DNA of 64,000 bases from Nitzschia sp. pyKryTriq1 (lineage: Eukaryota > Bacillariophyta > Bacillariophyceae > Bacillariales > Bacillariaceae). The notes beneath the pieces were generated by a model. The model searched no databases, was not told where the DNA came from, and worked only from the letters and a program-made list of their open reading frames with translations. This document shows, piece after piece, positions 9,118-56,556 of the stretch (position 1 is the stretch's first letter; each line of letters opens with the position of its first letter). The position numbers and the translations under genes were made by a program. The stretch covers positions 2,040,001-2,104,000 of the forward strand of contig OY101120.1 in assembly GCA_956465555.1 (NCBI GenBank). Direction: 5' to 3'.

Positions 9118-12100
9118 ATGCCCAAAACAGACACATCCCTAGTTGGAGGCAATCTGTACCTTCTCTTGTCAGCTTTGTATATCGTGGCATGCTTTCATCT
9201 CTTGTACCAAGCTTGTCTGGCGGCGTATCAGATCCGACTGTACGCCATTAATGAGTACGGCCGAGTCATTCATGAATTTGACCCTTATTTCAACTACCGC
9301 GCTGCCGAGTATCTTTGGGAGCACGGCGCGGCAAAGTTCTTCAAATGGTTTGACTATATGTCCTGGTATCCTCTTGGAAGACCCGTAGGAACGACCATCT
9401 TCCCTGGAATGCAGTTCACCAGTGTCTGGATTAAGCAGTTCATTCTGCCGGACTGGTCGATTAATGACATTTGCTGTTTAGTGCCTGCCTGGTTTGGAGT
9501 GTTGGCGACCCTGGCCACTTCGGCCCTGTGCTACAGCTGCGTCAGATCTATTTCGCATTCTTCTAGAAGCAGAAGTATCCTTACAGACATTCCAGTTGTC
9601 TCGACGATTACCAAGGGGGTGCTGCTTCCCATTCTAAATGCATTGATCAAGCTTTTGAAGAATATGACTGGTTCCACCTGGGGCATTGCCACAATGAAGA
9701 ACCCTCCAGCTCTAGAGTCCGCTGTATTCACCGCCTTTATCATGAGTATTGTGCCTGCTCACTTGCTCCGAAGTGTTGGAGGGGGCTATGATAATGAAAG
9801 TGTGGCGACCTTTGCCATGGAAATGACCTTTTGGACCTGGACATTGACCTTGTCGGCCACTTCCTTGAGACAAGCTATTATCCTTGGTGTCGTTTCGGGG
9901 ATTTGCTACTTTTATATGGTTGCCGCCTGGGGTGGATATGTCTTTGTGATCAACCTCATTGGGATCCACACGGTAGCTGTTTTCTTATTGCAAAAGCTGC
10001 CCTGGGATCATTTGTATCGCTCCTACACCAGTTTCTTCCTCGTTGGTACACTTTTGGCAATGCAGGTCCCCGTGGTCAACTGGACGCCTATCAAATCACT
10101 GGAACAGCTCGGCCCACTTGCTGTGTTTGCTGGCTTTCAAGTACTGCAGCTGATGTGTGTTCTCGAATCCAAGTACAAGAAGGTGAACAAGTGGATGGTG
10201 CGAGCTGCAGTAATCTTGGCCGGTATGATTGTGGCATTACCGGTAATGTACTACTTGTACACCACTGGGTACTTTGGTCCAATCTCGTCCCGTGTTCGGG
10301 GTCTCTTTGTCAAGCACACCAAAACGGGCAATCCTCTCGTTGATTCGGTCGCCGAGCATCAAGCGGCCTCGCCTCAGGCTTACTACCAATACTTACATGA
10401 TTCCAGTACTATTGCTCCTTTTGGGTTGGCCATTGTGGCGTTGCTGGGATGTACCGCATCAAGCAGCTTCCTGATCATGTATGCCATGTCAGCCTACTTT
10501 TTTAGTCACAAAATGGTTCGTCTAATTCTATTGACAGCGCCGATTGCTAGCATTTGTGCTGGCATCGCCTTGGGATATGGCTGGGCATGGGGGGTAGGAG
10601 CTATCTTTGGTGATGCTCGCCCCAATTTAGATCTTTTTCTGGAAGATGAAGAAGAGGACGAAGCTCCACCGGAACCCAAGCCAAGCAAAAAGGCAAAGAA
10701 AAAGTCCAAGAAGGACGCCGACGAGGACGGTGCGACCTCCGAAGCAAAAGACACCCCCACCACGAAGGCTTCTGGCGATCCTCTCTGGGTTCGTGTTATA
10801 CGACTCGCCGTCCTTGGCTATGCCATTAAGCAAATTATTCCTCATGCGGAGGAGTTCAAACAGACTGCCGAGGGCATGGCCCATTCTATTTCGCATCCTA
10901 CCATTATTCAGAAAGGAAGAAACAGGAATACGGGTGAAGAGGTCACGATTGATGACTATCGTGAAGCCTATTGGTGGTTGCGAGACAATACCCCAGAGGA
11001 TGCTCGCATCATGGCTTGGTGGGATTATGGATATCAGATCACTGGCATTGCCAATCGTACGACCATTGCTGACGGAAATACGTGGAACCACGAGCACATT
11101 GCGTTGCTCGGAAGGACTTTGACTAGCCCCGAAAAAGAGGCTCACCGTATCGCACGTCACTTGGCAGATTATGTGTTGATCTGGGCTGGTGGGGGCGGTG
11201 ATGACCTTGCCAAGAGTCCTCACTTGCGACGAATTGCCAATTCGGTTTATCAGGGTCTCTGCAGAGAGCCTACTTGCAATGGATTTGGAATGAGGGTAAG
11301 TAGAACACAATCGTCACTGGGACATTGGGACATGGAGTTGCGCGAAACCACTGGACTAACACTACGGTATGGAAACATTCTTTCGGCCACAGGGACAAGG
11401 ACAGCCCACAAAATCGTTGAGCGACAGTTTGCTCTTTAAATTGCACAGTAATGGATTGGTACCTGGCGTAGAAGCCGACCGCAATCGGTAGGTCCTCATC
11501 TTGCTATTTCTATAGAAGCCGACCGCAATCGGTAGGTCCTCATCTTGCTATTTCTGTCGTCTCTAACTTCCATCGCATTATTGTTTTTATTCAGCTTCCG
11601 GGAGGTCCATCGAAGTAAGCACGGAAAAGTGCGAATTTACAAGATCATGAGCGTTTCAAAGGAATCAAAGCAATGGGTTATCGATAACCGAAAATGTGAC
11701 GCCCCCGGATCTTGGTTCTGCCCAGGGCATTATCCTCCGGCGCTCGAAAAGATCTTGGAAGAGAAGAGGGACTTTGCGCAGCTGGAAGATTTTAACAGGA
11801 AGGAAATCGATAAGGACTCACAGAAAAAATACCAGGATGAATACTTTAAAAACTTGAAGTGAGTTCTTGCAGAATATTTTCAACTCCAAGGTTGAAGGTG
11901 ATGTTTGAAAGCCTCTCATAATTTCTTTCTTCTTCTTTCGCAGCAAAAAGCGAAGCAGAGATCAGTATGACGACGAAGATGCACCCGAGATCAAGAATAG
12001 GGCTGAAAAAGGGTTCGATGGTCATCTCCGAAAACTGGATGACCTCGATATCGACATGATTAACGAGCATTGGGAAAACACGGAAGAAACTAGCATGATG

Positions 12101-16912: not shown

Positions 16913-19900
16913 ATGGCGAAAGCAAAGACGGCAACGCAGCAGACGGAATCATCCGATCCATTTGCACCCCCACCAGAAAAAAAAGAAAAGGTGACATCAC
17001 TGCCGCCCTCCAACCCTCTAGTTGGCTGGGTTTGGTTTGGAGCCGCCGTCTACTTGGTGGCCGTGATTGTGAAGACCGCGTACCGTATTCGCATGGGAGC
17101 GATCGATGAGTTTGGACCTGTCATTCACGAATTTGACCCCTATTTCAACTTTCGAGCCACTGAGGTACGTAAGCACACGAAAATGCTCTACAGTAGACAT
17201 ACTGCACCGTACTGCACTGCACTGCACTTGCACAGAATCCATTTCATGTGAATCTTATGCTGTTTTCTCGTTTTCTTCATTATCCAACGTTATGTGCTGC
17301 AGTATCTTTACGAACATGGCGCGAAGAAGTTCTTTCAGTGGTTTGACTACATGGTCTGGTATCCTCTTGGGAGACCCGTCGGTACCACCATCTACCCTGG
17401 CATGCAATTTACCGCGGTATGGATCAAGCGTTACCTCCTTCCGGACTGGTCTCTGAATGACGTTTGCTGTTATATTCCTGCTTGGTTCGGCGCCGTTGCC
17501 AGTCTCATTGTTGGCCTCATCACGTACGAGTGTACCATTCCAGCCAACTCATCTTCCAACCTCCCCCAGTGGGTCTGGGATCTGATCCAAGGGAAGATGA
17601 CCAATCTTACCCCTGTCGCTCGACCTATGGTGCTTGGTTTGAATTCTCCTTCTCTTGAATGCGGCGTCTTTGCAATGGCGATGATGGCGATTGTTCCTGC
17701 GCACTTGATGAGAAGTGTCGGGGGAGGGTACGATAACGAGTCGGTGGCCGTCACGGCCATGTGCACGACCTTTTATCTTTGGGTTCGAAGTCTTCGAGAC
17801 GACCGTTCGTCGTGGTTGGGTGTTCTCACGGCAGTTGCATATTTCTACATGGTGGCGGCCTGGGGAGGATATGTGTTTGTATTGAACTTGATTGGAGTTC
17901 ATGCAGCTTCCTTGGTGGCAGGTGGGCGCTTTTCGACCAAGGTCTACCGAGCTTATTCTTTGTTTTACTTTATTGGAACGGCTTTGGCTATTCAAGTTCC
18001 TGTGGTAGGCTGGGCTCCATTGAAGTCTCTGGAACAACTCGGTCCTTGCCTTGTCTTTGTCGCTTATCAGTTGCTCCAAATAGCAAACCTGATCAAGACT
18101 AAAGAAATGTCTCGTCTTGATCTACTCAAGTTGCGAGTCAAGTTGTTTGCGGCGGCTGGTGTGGCAGGTGTCCTTGTGATTATGGCGGTTGCCCCCAGTG
18201 GTTACTTTGGTCCGCTTTCGTCTCGGGTTCGTGGGTTGTTTGTTCAGCACACCAAGACTGGAAACCCTTTGGTCGATTCCGTTGCCGAACATCAGCCAGC
18301 AAGTTCACGAGCGTACTTTCAGTATCTTCACCATGTATGTAGTTTGGCTCCCATTGGATACCTCATGGTCATGGCAAACTTGAGCGATTCCTCCAGTTTC
18401 TTGTTGGTCTGGGGATTTACGGCATACTTCTTCTCGCATAAAATGGTACGATTGATCTTACTGACCGCTCCAATCGGATGTACCTTGGGCGGCATCGCTG
18501 CAGGCCGTCTCTTTGCATGGTGTGTCCGCCAGTGGTGGGATTCTCACGAGGAATCATCGGCTGGGAAATCCAAGACGGACAGTTTCGGAAGCAAGCGCGG
18601 CGCTCCCAAGTCAAAGAAGCCCTCCAAGAAGTCTTCTTCGTCTTCGAAAGCCGGAAACGAAGGCTTTGACTCGCTGAAAGAGGCGATGGACAACGCTCTA
18701 TCAAGCAGCGAAGGTATAATTGCCAAGAGGACGATTGCTTGCCTGATTGTGTTGTTGGGGTACATCTTGAGTGTCAACTTTAAAGATTATTGCTGGAGAT
18801 TGTCCACTGACTTATCGAATCCAACCATCATCGTCAAAGCGCGGCTCCGAGATGGTCGTGTCATCAAGCTGGATGATTATCGTGAGGCCTACTGGTGGCT
18901 GCGTGATAACACGCCAGAAGACGCTCGTATCATGGCTTGGTGGGACTATGGTTACCAGATTACTGCCATTTCCAACAGAACTACTTTGGCGGATGGTAAC
19001 ACTTGGAATCATGAACACATTGCGCTCCTAGGAAAGGCCCTCACTGCCAGGGAGGAAGAAGGATACGAGATTGCGCGTCATCTGGCAGACTACGTTCTGG
19101 TATGGGGTGGTGGCGGTGGTGATGACTTGGCCAAGAGTCCTCACTTGGCTCGCATTGCCAACTCTGTCTACCGTGACCATTGTCCAGCAGGGGATCCGAC
19201 ATGCCGTTCTTTTGGTTTTGTGGTAAGTTCATCATCATATGACCCGCGAGGGAATTCGGTCACACAACAGTGCGCTCACCCTCTCTTCGTTTTGTACACT
19301 AATTGTTTGCAGGATAAACAAGGTACACCTTCGGCTATGATGGAACGTTCCTTGCTCTATCGCCTACATGGCCACCAAATCAAGAAGGGCGTCGAAGCCA
19401 ACCCCGACATGTGGAAGGAAGTGTACAGATCCAAGTATGGCCGGGTCCGCATTTTCAAGATCCTGAACGTCGCAGAAGAGTCCCGAGAATGGGTGAAGAA
19501 CAATGTCCATTGTGATGCTCCAGGAAGTTGGTTCTGTCCTGGATCCTACCCCCCTGGTCTTGCGGGCATATTGGCGAGCAAGACTGATTTTGCGCAGCTT
19601 GAGGACTTTAATCGTGGATTGAAAGACGCCGAGTACCAGAAGCAATACTTCGAAGCCTTGAACAACCCTAGCGAAGCGTTGAAGAAGGCTCGGATGCAAG
19701 AACGCGAGGACAAGATGAAGCAAGCTGAAGCTGGTGAATCCGTCCCGGCTTCTGGCGAACAAGAGCAGGCAGCGAACCCGAAGAAGGTCGATGAGATCTA
19801 CAACACATGGGAAGATACCGAGGATACTACGCTGATGTGGAGCTTGATCTCCAACAATCAAGTGGAAGAACTGGGGATGTGGCTCGAGGAAGACCCTACT

Positions 19901-20062
19901 GTAGCTTTCATTCGCAGCCGTGATGGGCGGGGCCCAATGTGGTGGGCTTTTGAGCAACGAAATGAAGAAATCACGAAGATGTTGATGAAGGCCGGTGTCC
20001 CTCATACCGATCGAGATTCCAAGGGAATGACCCCGGTTGACTTGCTCGAGGGAAAAGCCTAG
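16913..20062 (+). CDS. STT3: oligosaccharyltransferase catalytic subunit STT3, copy 2, with ankyrin-like tail
   Basis: Second ER oligosaccharyltransferase catalytic subunit, 973 residues from exons 16913..17164, 17303..19222, 19313..20062. The ATG at 16913 begins MAKAKTATQQ; upstream in-frame codons lack an ATG. Motifs: EFDPYFNFRA near residue 73, DSVAEHQ near 420 and WWDYGYQ near 630, with a GGGGDDLAKSPHL loop as in copy 1. The basic/Ser-rich loop (KSKKPSKKSSSSSK) sits where copy 1 has its Lys/Glu loop. The last ~80 residues (MWSLISNNQVEEL ... SRDGRGPMWWAFEQR ... KGMTPVDLL) form an ankyrin-like unit shared with copy 1. The first intron falls where copy 1 has none; the second is in a shared position. 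The paralogues probably arose by tandem duplication and have diverged. Confidence 0.94.
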
Positions 20063-50007: not shown

Positions 50008-53000
50008 ATGAGATTCACATCCGCAACAGTGGCAGCTGTGCTGTTGGCAAACAGTGATATGGCAGGTGCTTTTTCCGTTCGACCGCCAGTCACTGTCTCC
50101 AACCAACTCCAAATTAGTAGTGTTGCTCAGCAGCGACTCTCGCCCCTAAAGTTCGCTGAAGTTTCAGGGGGAATGGAAGAATTGCAAGAGCTCACCGAGG
50201 ACAAAACAGCCAACGCTTTCGAGAAGACAGTCCGAAAGTCTCCTTCTTTCTGGAAGCTGGCTGGTTATGCCTCAATTCCTGTCTCGGCTGCTCTGGGTTT
50301 CGGCCTCGTACCTAGTCGCCGCCTGGCCGCCCACGCAGCCGGGGCAATCGTTACGGGTGTCGCTGGAGCCATCGGCAAGTCTCGACTTGACCTGATCACC
50401 GAAACTGCTGCCACTCCTGCCATCGCACAGGCCATCATCGATCATGGAGTCGAGGATCCAGCTACGACTGCTGGATACATTCGCGAAATCCAAACCAAAT
50501 TTGGAATTGTTGATGATGAAGAGTTTGAGGCCATGTGTGCTGATGTTTACAGTAAATATCTCTTGGGTTTGGTCAAGTTCAACCCAGTGGCGAAAACCAG
50601 TGAACCAAAGGAGCTGGAGAACCTCAAAACAGCACTCGGTTTGTCCAATCTGATGGTTGGAGAAGCTCACGGAGCAGCGGCAGCTGAGTGGTATCGCACA
50701 ACATGCCTTTTCACCCCGGAAGAGGACTTGGATGATCCTGATCACCCGGATCGCCAAGCTATGGACAAGTTCATTTTCCTGACTGAGCGTGTTTTGAATC
50801 GGGGAGGAGAAACTCCGGAAGCGTTTAAGTTTGAGATGACTCGGGTAGCAAAGGCTATGAATCTATCTCTCATGGAAGCTGTGGACCGTGTTACCGACGT
50901 TAACGAGCCCTTTTACCAACGTGCCTTGAAGTCTACTCGAGCCAAATTGGGAACCAACCAAGTTTCGCAGTCAACACTCGAGAAGGCTCGACAATCGTTG
51001 GGAATTTCCGAAGAAACCGCCTTCGACATGCATGTCGCTTGTTTCAATGAAGAAGTCCGTGACTTGCTTGGACTCCAGGCCAGCGACGAAGAAGAAGCCG
51101 CTGAAATCAACACCTACACTGCCAAATTCAGTGAAGGCGCAAGAGAAAGGGTGAGAAGATGATTTCTTTGTGTCTGGCTGCTGTTTTCACCCTGCTAACT
51201 CTAACATTTTCTTTTCTTTTTCTTCCGCTGATAGTTGGACCAATTAAAGGACATCCTTGGTCTTTCTGATGAAGACGCCGATTACGAGATTTCTGCGGAG
51301 GCGACACCTCTCTATCAAGCTACTGCCCTCGCTTCCATCAATGAGGTGTTGACAGGTAGCAGCTCGCCCGACGTCGCCTGGGAGAAAATTGAAACCCGGC
51401 GAAAAGAGCTGCTAATCCCAGAATCGAAGAGTAAAGATCTTATTTCTTCAATGGTGATGCAAGCACTTGGCGTCCCACTTGAAGAAGCCAACAAATTTGC
51501 CAAGGTCAACAATGAAGCTGCCGTGTATGATAATCTTCTTGAGACCCTCGAGGCTAAGCAAACTTTGATTGCCATTCTCACAAAGTCTGGATGGGATGAA
51601 TTTGATAATTTCGATAAGAATTTCTGCGACCCATGGGATCGGCAGTCGGCAAATGGCTTCATGCGATCAGAGGAGCGCATCAAAGTTTACAAAATCTTCC
51701 TTACTCGGACAGTCCGGAAATCGGCGGATGGAAACCTTACTGACGAAATGTACGATAAAGTTATGCAAATCAAGGGACTGCTGGGTATCTCAGACGAACA
51801 AGCCGAAATCGAAGCCCGAGCTGCCTTCGGTCCTGAAGTACAAAAGGCCTGTCTACGAGCGACCACGGAGATCGTAGCGGACTACACCCCGGAATTGGCG
51901 AAAAATATGAAGAAAGACATTGATGATGCGATGCAGAAGTACCGATTATCCGACGACTTCCTTCGCGAACAAGGAGCTAGTTATTATGCTAAGGCTGTCT
52001 CGCAGATCAGTGCCAAGTCGCCAGCTGGTATCCCGACCAAAGAGATGAACCAAGCCCTTCACGCTCTACAAGAAATGTTTAAGATCGGGAAAGAAGATAC
52101 ATATGCGGCACATATGGAGTTTTTCGGACCCGTTTACAAGAAGAGTATTGTCGAAGCCATGGGCTCAACCGGAGTCATCCGAGAAGAGCTGAAGGGTTCG
52201 CTTGCTGATTTGCGTGATCGGTTGGGAGTCCGAGAAGAAGACACAAAAGAACTGTTTTTGGAAGCAATCGAGGAGAAATTCGTTCCCATGGTCGATTGGA
52301 TCAACAGCGAGATGGAACGCACTATGCTTAACCAGAAACAACTTTCCGAACGCAGAGGAAGGGACATGGGGGAAGATATGTTCCAATCGGGCAAGATCGC
52401 TGATGTAAGTTGTTTCTTTGCCTCCTACTTGATAGCATTTCAAGGATGCAATGTTGTCTAACAAATTTTCGTATGGCAGGGTGTCTTGGGATTGGGCGCC
52501 GAAGTCAATATTATGGGCGATATCATCAATCTGGTTGACTTTTACGCAGAGAATGAAATTGCCGAAGAAAAAGAAATCGGGACAAAGGAAGTAGAAGGAG
52601 AGGATGTTCCGGTCTTGGAAACGTCCTACCCTATTACTGCTATTGGGTCGGGAGCGCTTGACCAAGAAATGGCAGAATACTTGTACCGACAGTTTGTTGT
52701 CGGCGCTTTCACCGCCCAAGGCGGACAGGCAGGGCGATACGAGGCTGCTCGCGCTAGTTTTGGAGGTATTCTTGGTCTCACTAGCGAGAAGATGGAAGAA
52801 ATCAACAGCACTATCGGAAGTTCAGTCTACGACAACTATGTGTCGAGGACGATGGCGACAAAGGGAGCTTTGGATCAACAGGATATGATGTTCTTGGCAA
52901 ACATTCAAGGCAAACTCGGTCTTTCATCTGAGCAGTCCGAAAAGCTTTTGATGCAGTCGCAGAAAAAGGTTCTATCAGAGGAAATCAACGCCTTGATGGA

Positions 53001-53496
53001 CGACCCCACGCCGGAAGGCATGAAGGCCTTCCGTGAGAAGTGCAACGTCATGGGCATGGATCTCGCCGAGGATGTGGGTATTTCAAGTACACGCATTGTC
53101 CGTATGTTTGAGTCGGAAATTATTCCAGGCTTGAAGAGCGGTGAAATCAACGTTGGGACAAGCGAAATCTTGACAGAGATTCAAGAGAGTCTCAATCTTG
53201 ATCCCGAAGAGTGCGAAGCCATGTTTGAAGGTGTCCTTTTGCGCCTGGCAAAGCAAGCGATGGATCTCATCAATGCGGAGCTCCTTCGGGGACGTGAGGA
53301 GAACACGGTCGACCTCATCAAGGAGCTTGTCGGATATGCCGCATTCGTGGACGGCGATCTTGGGCTGAACGTTGATGAAGCGCAGGCTTACCAAGTCTTT
53401 AATATTTACGAGGCATTTGACTTTTCCGGGGAAGACCCTGCGCAAGTTGAAGCCAACAAAGAGCTGCTGCAAACTGCTCTTGGCATCAGTCAATAA
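50008..53496 (+). CDS. TIC110: TIC110, plastid inner-envelope import component
   Basis: 1109 residues from exons 50008..51150, 51235..52404, 52480..53496, all in phase 0. The leader MRFTSATVAAVLLANSDMAGAFSVRPP has the A-F plastid cleavage motif. One or two membrane helices lie at about 85-125 (IPVSAALGFGLVP, AGAIVTGVAGAIG). The long remainder is helical with repeated EAA-like units (ETAATPAIAQAIIDHG, LGLSNLMVGEAHGAAAAEWY, LLGISDEQAEIEARAAFG, LGLTSEKMEEINSTIGSSVY, LNLDPEECEAMFEGVLLRLA), the HEAT-like TIC110 core seen in plants and red-lineage plastids. It scaffolds the stromal import motor at the inner membrane. The Clp unfoldase at 2801 is a possible functional partner. Confidence 0.92.
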
Positions 53497-54482
53497 TGTA
53501 TAGAATGTTTACGATTTGTTTTGGATATTTTTTACTACAGTACGATTACAAGAAGTAGTCTGCGAGTTCGACGCCGTATGCTGCAGAGGGCACATACGGT
53601 ACCGGTATCCAATTCTTCATCTCAGGAAATGATTCTAGTCTATTAAACTTTCTTGATGATGATTCAATGCTCCGTTGTAACACAACTGAACTTCCTTCCT
53701 CAATATCGATTCGTTTATTTCTTGCTAACTGTTGGGCTGTGATACCGGTAGAGGTCAAGCTATTCTAAAAGAAATGGAAAGGTTGAAAAAAGCAAAAGAA
53801 GTAATCGTAGTCAGACGCCTTACCGTTGGGCCAACAGGACACATCTTATCCCGCCTGGGATTCGAACCCAGAATCTTCTGATTGCAACTAACGCAAGATG
53901 GCGGATTGAAATATATAAATATGTTTTTAAGAACATTTTTTTGTCCTGACGAACGCTCGTTCTCAGTACCCTGGTACCATACTGTAAAGTATTACCGGTA
54001 AAATACGATTACCGAGTACACCACCGATCGCTCGTTGTAATGATATAATGTGTCTGTCCCTTTGCCCAATATATTTCTAAAAGATCCGTTAAATTACGTT
54101 CTTGAAATAAAAAGAAGTATGGTGATGAATTTATTATGATGAAAATGTGGTCTAAAATGAACTTTCGATAAGTTTGGCGGCATTTTGTTTGAACGGGAGA
54201 AAATTCGTTACTTCTATCGATCGTGCGCCGCGCCGTCTCCGCCGCCGGGCCGTTCGAGTTTTCTTTTGCACCCGCTTTTTTGCTGACAGACATTGACATT
54301 GAAATCAACGCTTCTATCGTGAAACCTTCACTTCCATTGCATATTTGGACGAACAGCAGAAACGAGCATTTCATAATATTCAGTTGCAGTTGTCGTCGTC
54401 GCTGTAGAATCTCTGTCGGTGACGGATCAAAAGTAGAAAAATCGAGCCTTCTTTCTCTTGGTTCTCTAAAAAAATTAACCCC
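53497..54482. other. spacer containing the tRNA locus and GTAC words
   Basis: Besides the tRNA at 53805-53882, it holds accggta words at 53598-53612, 53740-53750 and 53965-54005. The region 54010-54480 has no supported gene. Confidence 0.6.
53805..53882 (-). tRNA. circularly permuted tRNA-Arg (anticodon ACG)
   Basis: On the minus strand the 3' half comes first. Bases 38-73 run from 53882 to 53847: A38, anticodon stem TCAGA, variable AGATT, T-arm CTGGG-TTCGAAT-CCCAG, acceptor GCGGGAT, discriminator A. A 6-base spacer (53841-53846) follows. Then bases 1-37 run from 53840 to 53805: acceptor GTCCTGT, TGGCCCAACGGTAAGGCG D-region, TCTGA, and loop C-T-A-C-G-A. Reordered, the anticodon stem (TCTGA/TCAGA) and T stem pair perfectly and the acceptor pairs 7 of 7 with three G-U. 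The loop becomes C-T-A-C-G-A-A, anticodon ACG (Arg), and the D-region matches eukaryotic tRNA-Arg. B-box GGTTCGAATCC precedes A-box TGGCCCAACGG. A T6 run (53786-53791) can end Pol III; TATA-like sequence lies near 53909-53925. No CCA is encoded. A bulge-helix-bulge could not be folded convincingly by hand. Confidence 0.8.
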
Positions 54483-56556
54483 ATGGAAAACAACGTGGTG
54501 GATGTCAATCTGTTGAACCAGATCATCTGGAACGAGAGAAACGCCGCAAACGAAAATTTTGATAATGAGATGGATGACGATGAAGATCGAGATGGCGACG
54601 GTACTTTGGATGGAGGAGTGGCCAGGAGCTCCGACGAGACAAGTACCTCGGACCGGAAGAGCAGTTCGGACTGTGACTTGGTACGTTCCCCACACGTAGC
54701 CCCTGGTAGACTTTCTACGTGCTACGAAAACTCACATGCTTCCCCTATTTTCTTCTTCTTGTGGTTAGATGTTCTATTTGGCTTGTGAAGAAGTTCTCGA
54801 CATTGCCCCGCAACACCCGATTCTTCGACCAGGTGTAGTAGTTAGTATTGGGCTAGATAAGAGCACCAAATTGTCTGCGGTATTCCAGCGCTATGTCGAC
54901 TTTTGCAATGAAACGTCCGCATCGAAGGAGCCGGAGATTGCTGTCTCGGACTTGGAATTCATTCACTGTCAGCTTTTGAACGGCTCGGATACAGCGGAAG
55001 CCGGTGCCTTGATGAAGAACGACAAAATCAAGGTTCGAAAGGTCAGAACAGCAGAGCGAGAAGCGGAGCAAGAGCGAAAGCGTCTGCAGCGAGACGCGGA
55101 CAAGAATTTCTTCCAGCAAATGCGACACCTGATGCCTGACATGGGAGGATCGAAGACGTCCGATATTATCATAGACTGCCAGGGTAGACTTGCGGACGAA
55201 AGTGGGCGCAACCAGCAAGTGTTGAGTAGCACAGTCAAGGCTCATTCGTTGATCTTGAACAAGCGCTGCCCTTGGTTGGAGGGGATGATCCGAACAGCAC
55301 AGCTGGAGGCGGTTAGGGAAGCGCAGTTGGAGGCACGGAACCTTGAGAGAAGCGATGAGACGGAATCGAATAACCCAAACATTGTGTGTAGAGTTGAATC
55401 AGATGTCAAGTCCGGAGACGAAGTCGACGACGACGACGAGGATGATGATAGCGCGATTGTATCGTTTTCTCCTAAAGAGAAGCCAGAGATGGAGGAAGCT
55501 AGCGGCGCTGCGGAGATTGAGATCGACGATGAAGATGCTTCTTATGACGGCTCTTTAAGTCACCAGCCAGCCGTAGAGGAACGGCCGAGCTCTCCTAACA
55601 TGGTTATACCTTCCGCAAAGATGGTGCCGGGGCAGGGAAAGAAGCGTCTTCGGATTACGCTAAACCACTCACCCGAAGCAGTGAAGGTACTGTTGGAATA
55701 TTGCTACACAAACCGAGTGGCTTGCCTTGGTCAAGAAGCATTTGTGCAGGCATGCAAAACAAAGCCGCAGAAACACTCAGGTCCCATCGCACCGTACCCA
55801 ATTTCGGCGTCAGGATCACGTCGGTGGCCCAAGAACGGTCACCCGACAGTAGCATTCGCCGTTGCCGCAGCAGGTATCGTGCTAGCGGAGGAGGCTGGTC
55901 TTCCCCGCCTCTCGATAATGTGTGAAGTTGCAGCCTCGCAGCTGCTGACATCCTCGAATGTCATTGAAGCCCTCTCGCTCTGCAACAACCAGACTAGCGC
56001 CAGTGGCAACGACCTTCCACTGTTGCGCAAGGCTGCGATGTCAGTGATATTCCGAAATGGCTCTCGGGGCGTTTCCGATCTTGGACGCTCGCAATCTTTC
56101 AAACGTGGTCTCGCTGCTCGGCGGGCTGCCATTGTACCTACCTTGCTGCAAGGTACCCTAGAGGCAGTCGATGCCCAAGAAAAGAAGGGTGCAAGACGAG
56201 ATCGACACGACCTGGCACTTCTCTCCTTCGAGGTTTTAGATTCGGAAGACAAGTATCGTCGAGAACGAGAACGAAAGAAGCGCAGACTCGAGCGTATCGA
56301 AAGTGACCCCAATCGACGACACGAGCTTGTTGACTTTGAAATGGAAGAGATCTACGATGAATTCCGTGGGTGGGCACATGAGGCTCCCAAGAGATCTCTT
56401 AGACGCATGGCTAAACACCTGGAAAACATGACAAATCGTTCGATGGCAGCTTTCAACAACAGGCACCGGTACTCTTTCCCCACCGGAACAAACAGCAACT
56501 CGAGTAGCCGACGGTCAAGCAGTAGCCGGCGGAGATCGTCAAGTAACCAACCGTAA
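54483..56556 (+). CDS. SUMO-like (Ubl) + BTB/POZ-domain protein
   Basis: 661 residues from exons 54483..54680 and 54769..56556. After an acidic N-terminus, residues about 90-165 (VVSIGLDKSTKLSAVFQRYV, LEFIHCQLLNGSDTAEAGAL, KNDKIKVRKVR) follow the SUMO/Rad60-SLD pattern of strand, K-x-x-F-x-x-Y helix, F-x-x-x-x-L-x-x-x-D-T and D-x-I-x-V. A charged helix follows. A BTB domain starts at about 190 (SDIIIDCQGR, VKAHSLILNKRCPWLEGMI), is broken by a long acidic insert (about 270-350), and resumes with LNHSPEAVKVLLEYCYTNRV. A BACK-like helical part and an Arg/Ser-rich tail end the protein. BTB proteins often serve as Cullin-3 adaptors; the Ubl pairing is unusual. Assignments are by pattern. Confidence 0.75.

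Follow-up and report, generated by a model that had tools for sequence, protein, structure and literature searches.

A type II circularly permuted tRNA-Arg(ACG) gene, in which the 3' half of the tRNA precedes the 5' half and the two halves join at positions 37/38, lies on the minus strand of the window, the whole 64-kb stretch of DNA analysed here. This gene very probably works and is probably the only nuclear one for its tRNA, because no ordinary nuclear gene was found and because a mobile element of the same genome contains a sequence that resembles a joined copy of the finished tRNA. We also consider it likely, with less assurance, that the only nuclear tRNA-Arg(ICG) of this diatom is made via a circular RNA, and that a retroelement uses this tRNA as a primer and has kept a DNA copy of its joined, CCA-tailed and inosine-edited form. 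In minus-strand order, the locus comprises the following features:

53911..53917, minus strand: TATA-like TATATAT, 29-35 nt upstream of the 3' half
53883..53888, minus strand: leader end GUUGCA, candidate relaxed bulge-helix-bulge
53882-53847, minus strand, 36 nt: 3' half of tRNA-Arg(ACG), positions 38-73, with the anticodon 3' strand, variable loop, T arm with the B box, acceptor 3' strand and discriminator A
53846-53841, minus strand, 6 nt: intervening spacer AGATGT, read from the sequence
53840-53805, minus strand, 36 nt: 5' half of tRNA-Arg(ACG), positions 1-37, with the acceptor 5' strand, D arm with the A box, anticodon 5' strand and ACG
53786..53804, minus strand: trailer with T runs (T4 at 53797-53794, T6 at 53791-53786)

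An earlier note on this DNA had placed a permuted tRNA-Arg(ACG) gene at 53805..53882, and both the coordinates and the identity proved exact: the 72-mer obtained by rejoining the halves at 37/38 was recognised by ARAGORN as a complete tRNA-Arg(acg). The four stems that the note expected on swapping the halves all formed in this call, with 7 of 7 pairs in the acceptor stem (three of them G-U, including G1-U72), a D stem of 3 bp, and 5 of 5 pairs in both the anticodon and T stems; the anticodon loop is CTACGAA and the discriminator is A. The position of the 37/38 junction is uncertain by one base, since either side is able to supply one A. The AGATGT spacer, six bases long as the note had read it, contains no promoter or terminator. 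In the genomic (linear) order, in which the note had seen no tRNA, ARAGORN found no genes in the 64-kb window and Rfam gave no match at E<=1 in 53000-54700.

The signal of the permuted gene is far above chance. The covariance search with rotation proposed in the note was run with a model, R1, built from nuclear tRNAs of the same genome and rotated at 37/38; 18 of 23 rows served as input, the permuted gene and four duplicates or near-duplicates being omitted. This search recovered the exact locus (53882-53805, minus strand, full length, 62.8 bits, E 2.2e-18), and no other match appeared in the window at E values up to 10. When R1 was applied to the window together with 65 of 98 loci, 290,908 bases in all with some overlap, 102 matches were obtained, two of which represent the permuted gene, in the window and in the overlapping locus L001, and the next best match scored 34.7 bits. 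Ordinary tRNA genes are overlapped by 99 of the other 100 matches, the remaining one being a captured tRNA copy in L002 described below; no further permuted tRNA genes stood out in this set of the window and 65 loci.

Searches by sequence and pattern of the whole genome (40.65 Mb, 20 contigs) found no colinear nuclear tRNA-Arg(ACG) gene and detected the plastid gene as a positive control, which is the outcome of the count of Arg-ACG genes suggested in the note. With the rejoined 72-mer as a query, four matches were obtained at E<=10, namely the two permuted halves, a copy on contig C9 (residues 26-72, 98%), and a weaker adjoining match (residues 44-72, 90%). A 3'-half pattern with up to three mismatches occurred at two places in the genome, the permuted gene and the C9 copy. 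The pattern YTACG-N16-GTTCRANYC matched the plastid tRNA-Arg(ACG) and one non-tRNA sequence, while TACGNA-N13..15-GTTCRANYC had 13 matches, the plastid gene and 12 others. Six of these 12 were tested as ACG genes and none was a tRNA (0/6); the other six are near-identical copies of one tested repeat, judged by the printed 28-base matches. The 5'-half pattern had ten matches in the genome, the permuted locus included, and these loci were rejected as a second nuclear ACG gene, ARAGORN having called no tRNA gene in any of them. Among the same ten, a model R2 matched the permuted locus alone, with two partial matches (26.2 and 11.7 bits); on the captured copy (L002/L084) it scored 43.1 bits, with the D arm missing. 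Across the window and all fetched loci, the sole acg gene called by ARAGORN was the plastid one, and a pattern scan of viral_contigs gave no matches. One-mismatch pattern searches returned 106 and 171 places, about the first hundred of each being listed, and no conclusion is built on them. The other nuclear Arg genes seen carry the anticodons TCG, TCT, and CCT; the list of nuclear tRNAs behind this is incomplete, since it rests on 63 scored candidates out of 1,161.

In L074, near 1515-1600 (C1, about 130930) and just downstream of a pattern match, inspection by eye showed a stretch resembling a tRNA, which includes TAGCTCAGGTGGT and GAGTTCGAATC. Its anticodon is not ACG, it was called by neither ARAGORN nor R2, and it may be a pseudogene or a repeat derived from a tRNA.

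Standard wobble rules assign the codons CGU and CGC to tRNA-Arg(ICG). Together they account for 123 of 6,957 codons, stops counted, in 15 long open reading frames of the window picked from 24; since they are in use, this tRNA is needed under these rules. The permuted locus is probably the only nuclear gene for tRNA-Arg(ACG) in this diatom, although a diverged, intron-bearing colinear gene, or one located in an assembly gap, may have escaped searches by sequence and pattern. It is quite improbable, in our view, that such an overlooked colinear gene does the work and that the permuted locus is a dead remnant, left by tandem duplication and trimming of a tRNA-Arg gene. The way in which such a gene could be missed lends this explanation some room, but all stems of the rejoined tRNA are intact, the gene is the same as the captured tRNA over 47 compared positions apart from A34G, its T runs and TATA-like element resemble those of other tRNA genes, and the searches that found no colinear gene did detect the plastid control. 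An origin by tandem duplication was rejected, as no lost outer halves were found in the leader or trailer (local alignment, 2,000 shuffles, p 1.0/0.89).

Regarding these flanking signals, a TATA-like word within 60 nt upstream is present in 14 of 30 other nuclear tRNA genes, and all 30 have a run of T4 or longer within 30 nt. The T4 and T6 runs of the permuted gene begin at the 8th and 14th base past its 5' half; the T6 run that the note had taken as a terminator is present, following the T4 run, and the T runs of the trailer are likely the RNA polymerase III terminator.

The leader end GUUGCA would permit a junction structure resembling that of an intron. G(-3) can pair with C32 (the A-I pair), and C(-2) and A(-1) together with A38 would give the 3-nt bulge of a relaxed bulge-helix-bulge. 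The junction helix has three of four pairs, with a U33 x U-4 mismatch, which taken alone is a weak sign: by a rough estimate about 6 in 100 random leaders would be equally good. Native introns at 37/38 are present in the Val(TAC) gene and in two Met genes; with their boundaries placed manually from the ARAGORN output, they form 3, 3, and 4 of the 4 helix pairs at the same places, and all share the 32 to -3 pair with the permuted gene. The predicted fold of the 78-nt core is a nested permuted structure. In the lowest-energy fold predicted for a 145-nt stretch including the leader and trailer, the T arm and the acceptor hairpin are kept, and the anticodon stem is lost, being replaced by other end-to-end pairings, leader with trailer among them; this predicted fold speaks against a strong bulge-helix-bulge motif.

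The copy on contig C9, found with the rejoined 72-mer, occupies C9:1942967-1943013 (47 nt) and belongs to a 54-nt insert (L002:1491-1544, corresponding to C9:1942967-1943020). It reads TCTGA CTGCGAA TCAGA AGATT CTGGG TTCGAAT CCCAG GCGGGATA CCA. The match begins one base 3' of G26, spans the 37|38 junction and reaches the discriminator, with 46 of 47 bases identical to the rejoined tRNA (positions 27-73); the sole difference is a change of A34 to G. Immediately after the discriminator comes CCA, a triplet that is not encoded in the permuted gene. The note had considered that the two halves might match fragments of unrelated tRNA pseudogenes; this is contradicted by the single cloverleaf that the halves form and by the C9 copy, which carries the joined sequence across the junction.

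The repeat hosting the insert has 41 matching places, itself included, when a 601-bp region is used as the query. Its terminal sequence starts straight after the CCA of the insert, in the manner of an LTR at a primer binding site, and a 77-bp terminal stretch is repeated about 2.4 kb off (C9:1940614-1940690) with 100% identity and in the same orientation. This anatomy suggests that the repeated element is of the LTR type. The 54-nt insert is absent from all ten other copies of the element that were read (L088-L097). At the primer site, nine of these ten copies have about 30 nt resembling the 3' end of tRNA-Arg, with a 1-nt insertion and T-stem changes relative to it, and L095 has fewer. The likeness of about 30 nt exceeds the usual 18 nt and recalls a primer over-extension sequence.

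Reverse transcriptase copies inosine as if it were G, and it can be stopped at G26, a base that is often dimethylated. We infer from the sequence of the C9 insert that it is an overcopied tRNA primer, which would be an indirect sign of a joined, CCA-tailed, and A34-edited tRNA: the reverse transcriptase of the element, primed by tRNA-Arg(ICG), would have copied back into the primer past position 58 and stopped at G26. If this is right, the mature tRNA existed when this copy of the element arose. It seems unlikely that the insert was instead copied from DNA, or that it represents the mutated remains of a colinear gene that once existed, either of which would make it uninformative on maturation. 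One substitution and a CCA are possible by chance, A to G being the commoner transition kind, and a former colinear gene could have been the source of the copy at that time, and a relic of such a gene would likewise hold the joined order; moreover, primer copying does not fully explain the CTTA found on both sides, which ends the insert and also occurs just before it. However, the sole change in 47 sites is that of A34 to G, one of 141 equally likely single changes (its odds being somewhat higher since it is a transition), CCA comes straight after the discriminator, the match breaks off immediately 3' of G26, and the insert is located at a primer-site-like junction, at which copying of a tRNA primer would be expected, and is missing from the other copies read. 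A chance mutation would not, on this sequence evidence, explain the CCA, the primer-site position, and the G26 end jointly.

Related behaviour of reverse transcription is described in the accessible parts of two sources. The HIV-1 plus strand normally halts at m1A58 and extends further if this modification is missing, and some retroviruses have a primer over-extension sequence adjoining the PBS (PMC13191261); I34 and m2,2G26 are among the modifications with strong mutation signatures in cDNA (PMC9943672). The presumed event in the diatom resembles the over-extension of retroviral plus-strand strong-stop DNA, in which the tRNA primer is copied past the 18-nt site when the T-loop modification fails to stop synthesis (in the same available text of PMC13191261), but differs in that the extension would reach G26 and has been fixed in one genomic copy.

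For the permuted gene, the following maturation pathway is proposed. RNA polymerase III, aided by the upstream TATA-like element, would produce an RNA with the order leader-3'half-spacer-5'half-trailer and with the T run at its end. Within the anticodon loop, this RNA would be cleaved by the tRNA-splicing endonuclease, the leader and trailer serving as the ends of an intron, and a ligase would join A37 to A38 to give a circle, from which the 6-nt spacer would then be excised by RNase P and tRNase Z. Once CCA had been added and A34 converted to inosine, the product would be a tRNA-Arg(ICG) able to read CGU, CGC, and CGA, with the expected mature sequence GTCCTG...GCGGGATACCA. The transcription, the circle, the enzymes, and the order of steps are proposed by analogy with the algal pathway, which in the available text of Soma 2014 (PMC3978253) comprises a linear precursor, cleavage at the anticodon loop by the splicing endonuclease, ligation into a circle, excision of the spacer by the two enzymes RNase P and tRNase Z, and CCA addition.

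The halves might alternatively be joined in trans with another copy, as in a split tRNA, with no circle formed. Sequence cannot separate cis circularisation from the trans joining of two transcripts; nevertheless, joining in trans appears very improbable, given that only 6 nt, containing neither a terminator nor a TATA element, separate the halves on the same strand, that the 78-nt core is predicted to fold as a nested permuted structure, and that known algal cases go through a circle, according to the accessible text of Soma 2014 (PMC3978253). A split tRNA from separate loci was rejected, because the halves adjoin on one strand and a search with the rejoined tRNA turned up no second locus for the 5' half.

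Concerning the enzymes of the circular pathway, the genome encodes a tRNA_int_endo domain above the Pfam cut-off, and a second match is sub-threshold. For the RtcB ligase (Pfam PF01139) there was no match in the whole genome, while the control matched in 9 of 14 genomes; this genome thus combines tRNA introns and a splicing endonuclease domain with no RtcB match. In diatoms, ligases of the Trl1 type are reported, in the available part of PMC4090602.

With this locus, type II permuted tRNA genes extend to a new lineage, and the retroelement copy is an unusual kind of evidence. Table 1 of Soma 2014 (PMC3978253), available to us in part of that paper, lists 34 permuted genes from six algae and one archaeon, the hosts being one red alga, four green algae, one nucleomorph, and one archaeon. 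Later additions, from partly accessible sources, are the Amorphochlora nucleomorph and Auxenochlorella (PMC12636532). As far as the accessible text of PMC3978253 describes them, the type II genes of Cyanidioschyzon merolae, Ostreococcus, Micromonas, and the Bigelowiella nucleomorph likewise have the 3' half before the 5' half and a junction at 37/38, their spacers are 5-64 nt long, the 6-nt spacer of the diatom being likewise short, and they share an upstream AT-rich or TATA element and a downstream T run. The diatom gene differs from those in the table in its host, a diatom (stramenopile) nucleus, and Arg(ACG) is not listed there; one permuted gene was seen here in an incomplete survey, against 11 given in that source for C. 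merolae.

The Auxenochlorella case, in the available part of PMC12636532, is likewise nuclear and algal and was noticed through an incomplete set of ordinary tRNAs, but the host is a green alga. In the archaeon Thermofilum pendens (from the same accessible text of PMC3978253), the permuted gene is single-copy for its anticodon, apparently as in the diatom, whereas its permuted tRNAs have a junction at 59/60 and an additional intron, unlike the diatom gene. In the open-licence literature, from which subscription papers are largely absent, we found no report of a permuted tRNA gene in the nucleus of a diatom or another stramenopile.

If the proposed interpretation is true, the range of permuted tRNA genes, which covers red and green algae, nucleomorphs, and one archaeon, widens to a stramenopile nucleus. 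The arrangement would then have originated or persisted in another of the major eukaryotic groups, apparently as the only gene for a tRNA that is essential to decoding. The tRNA sets of diatoms obtained by standard annotation may then be incomplete, with permuted genes missed. The retroelement copy would offer a reading of tRNA processing and modification from genomic DNA alone, and the primer sites of retroelements could prove tRNA maturation in-genome elsewhere.

The diatom host named in the note is well supported: a 113-aa PsbB fragment encoded on contig C20 is identical at 113 of 113 residues to CP47 of PDB 6j3y/6jlu and has three differences from 8iwh. We take 6j3y/6jlu to be from Chaetoceros gracilis and 8iwh from Thalassiosira pseudonana. 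In the surroundings of the permuted gene, the neighbour gene at 50008-51162 has 162 homologues at E<=0.001, and PF16940, presumably Tic110, is carried among the 120 matches listed. Two similar long open reading frames lie close together on the same strand of the window, at 9118-11439 and 17294-20062; in our assumption, they resemble the oligosaccharyltransferase STT3. Among the ordinary tRNA genes, the tRNA-Thr(AGT) genes of L058 (C1:4275262) and L059 (C3:3135948) have nearly identical flanks on two contigs, which suggests a duplicated segment, and tRNA-Lys(TTT), Lys(CTT), and Gln(TTG) are clustered within 10 kb in L056 (C1:2243376-2253375).
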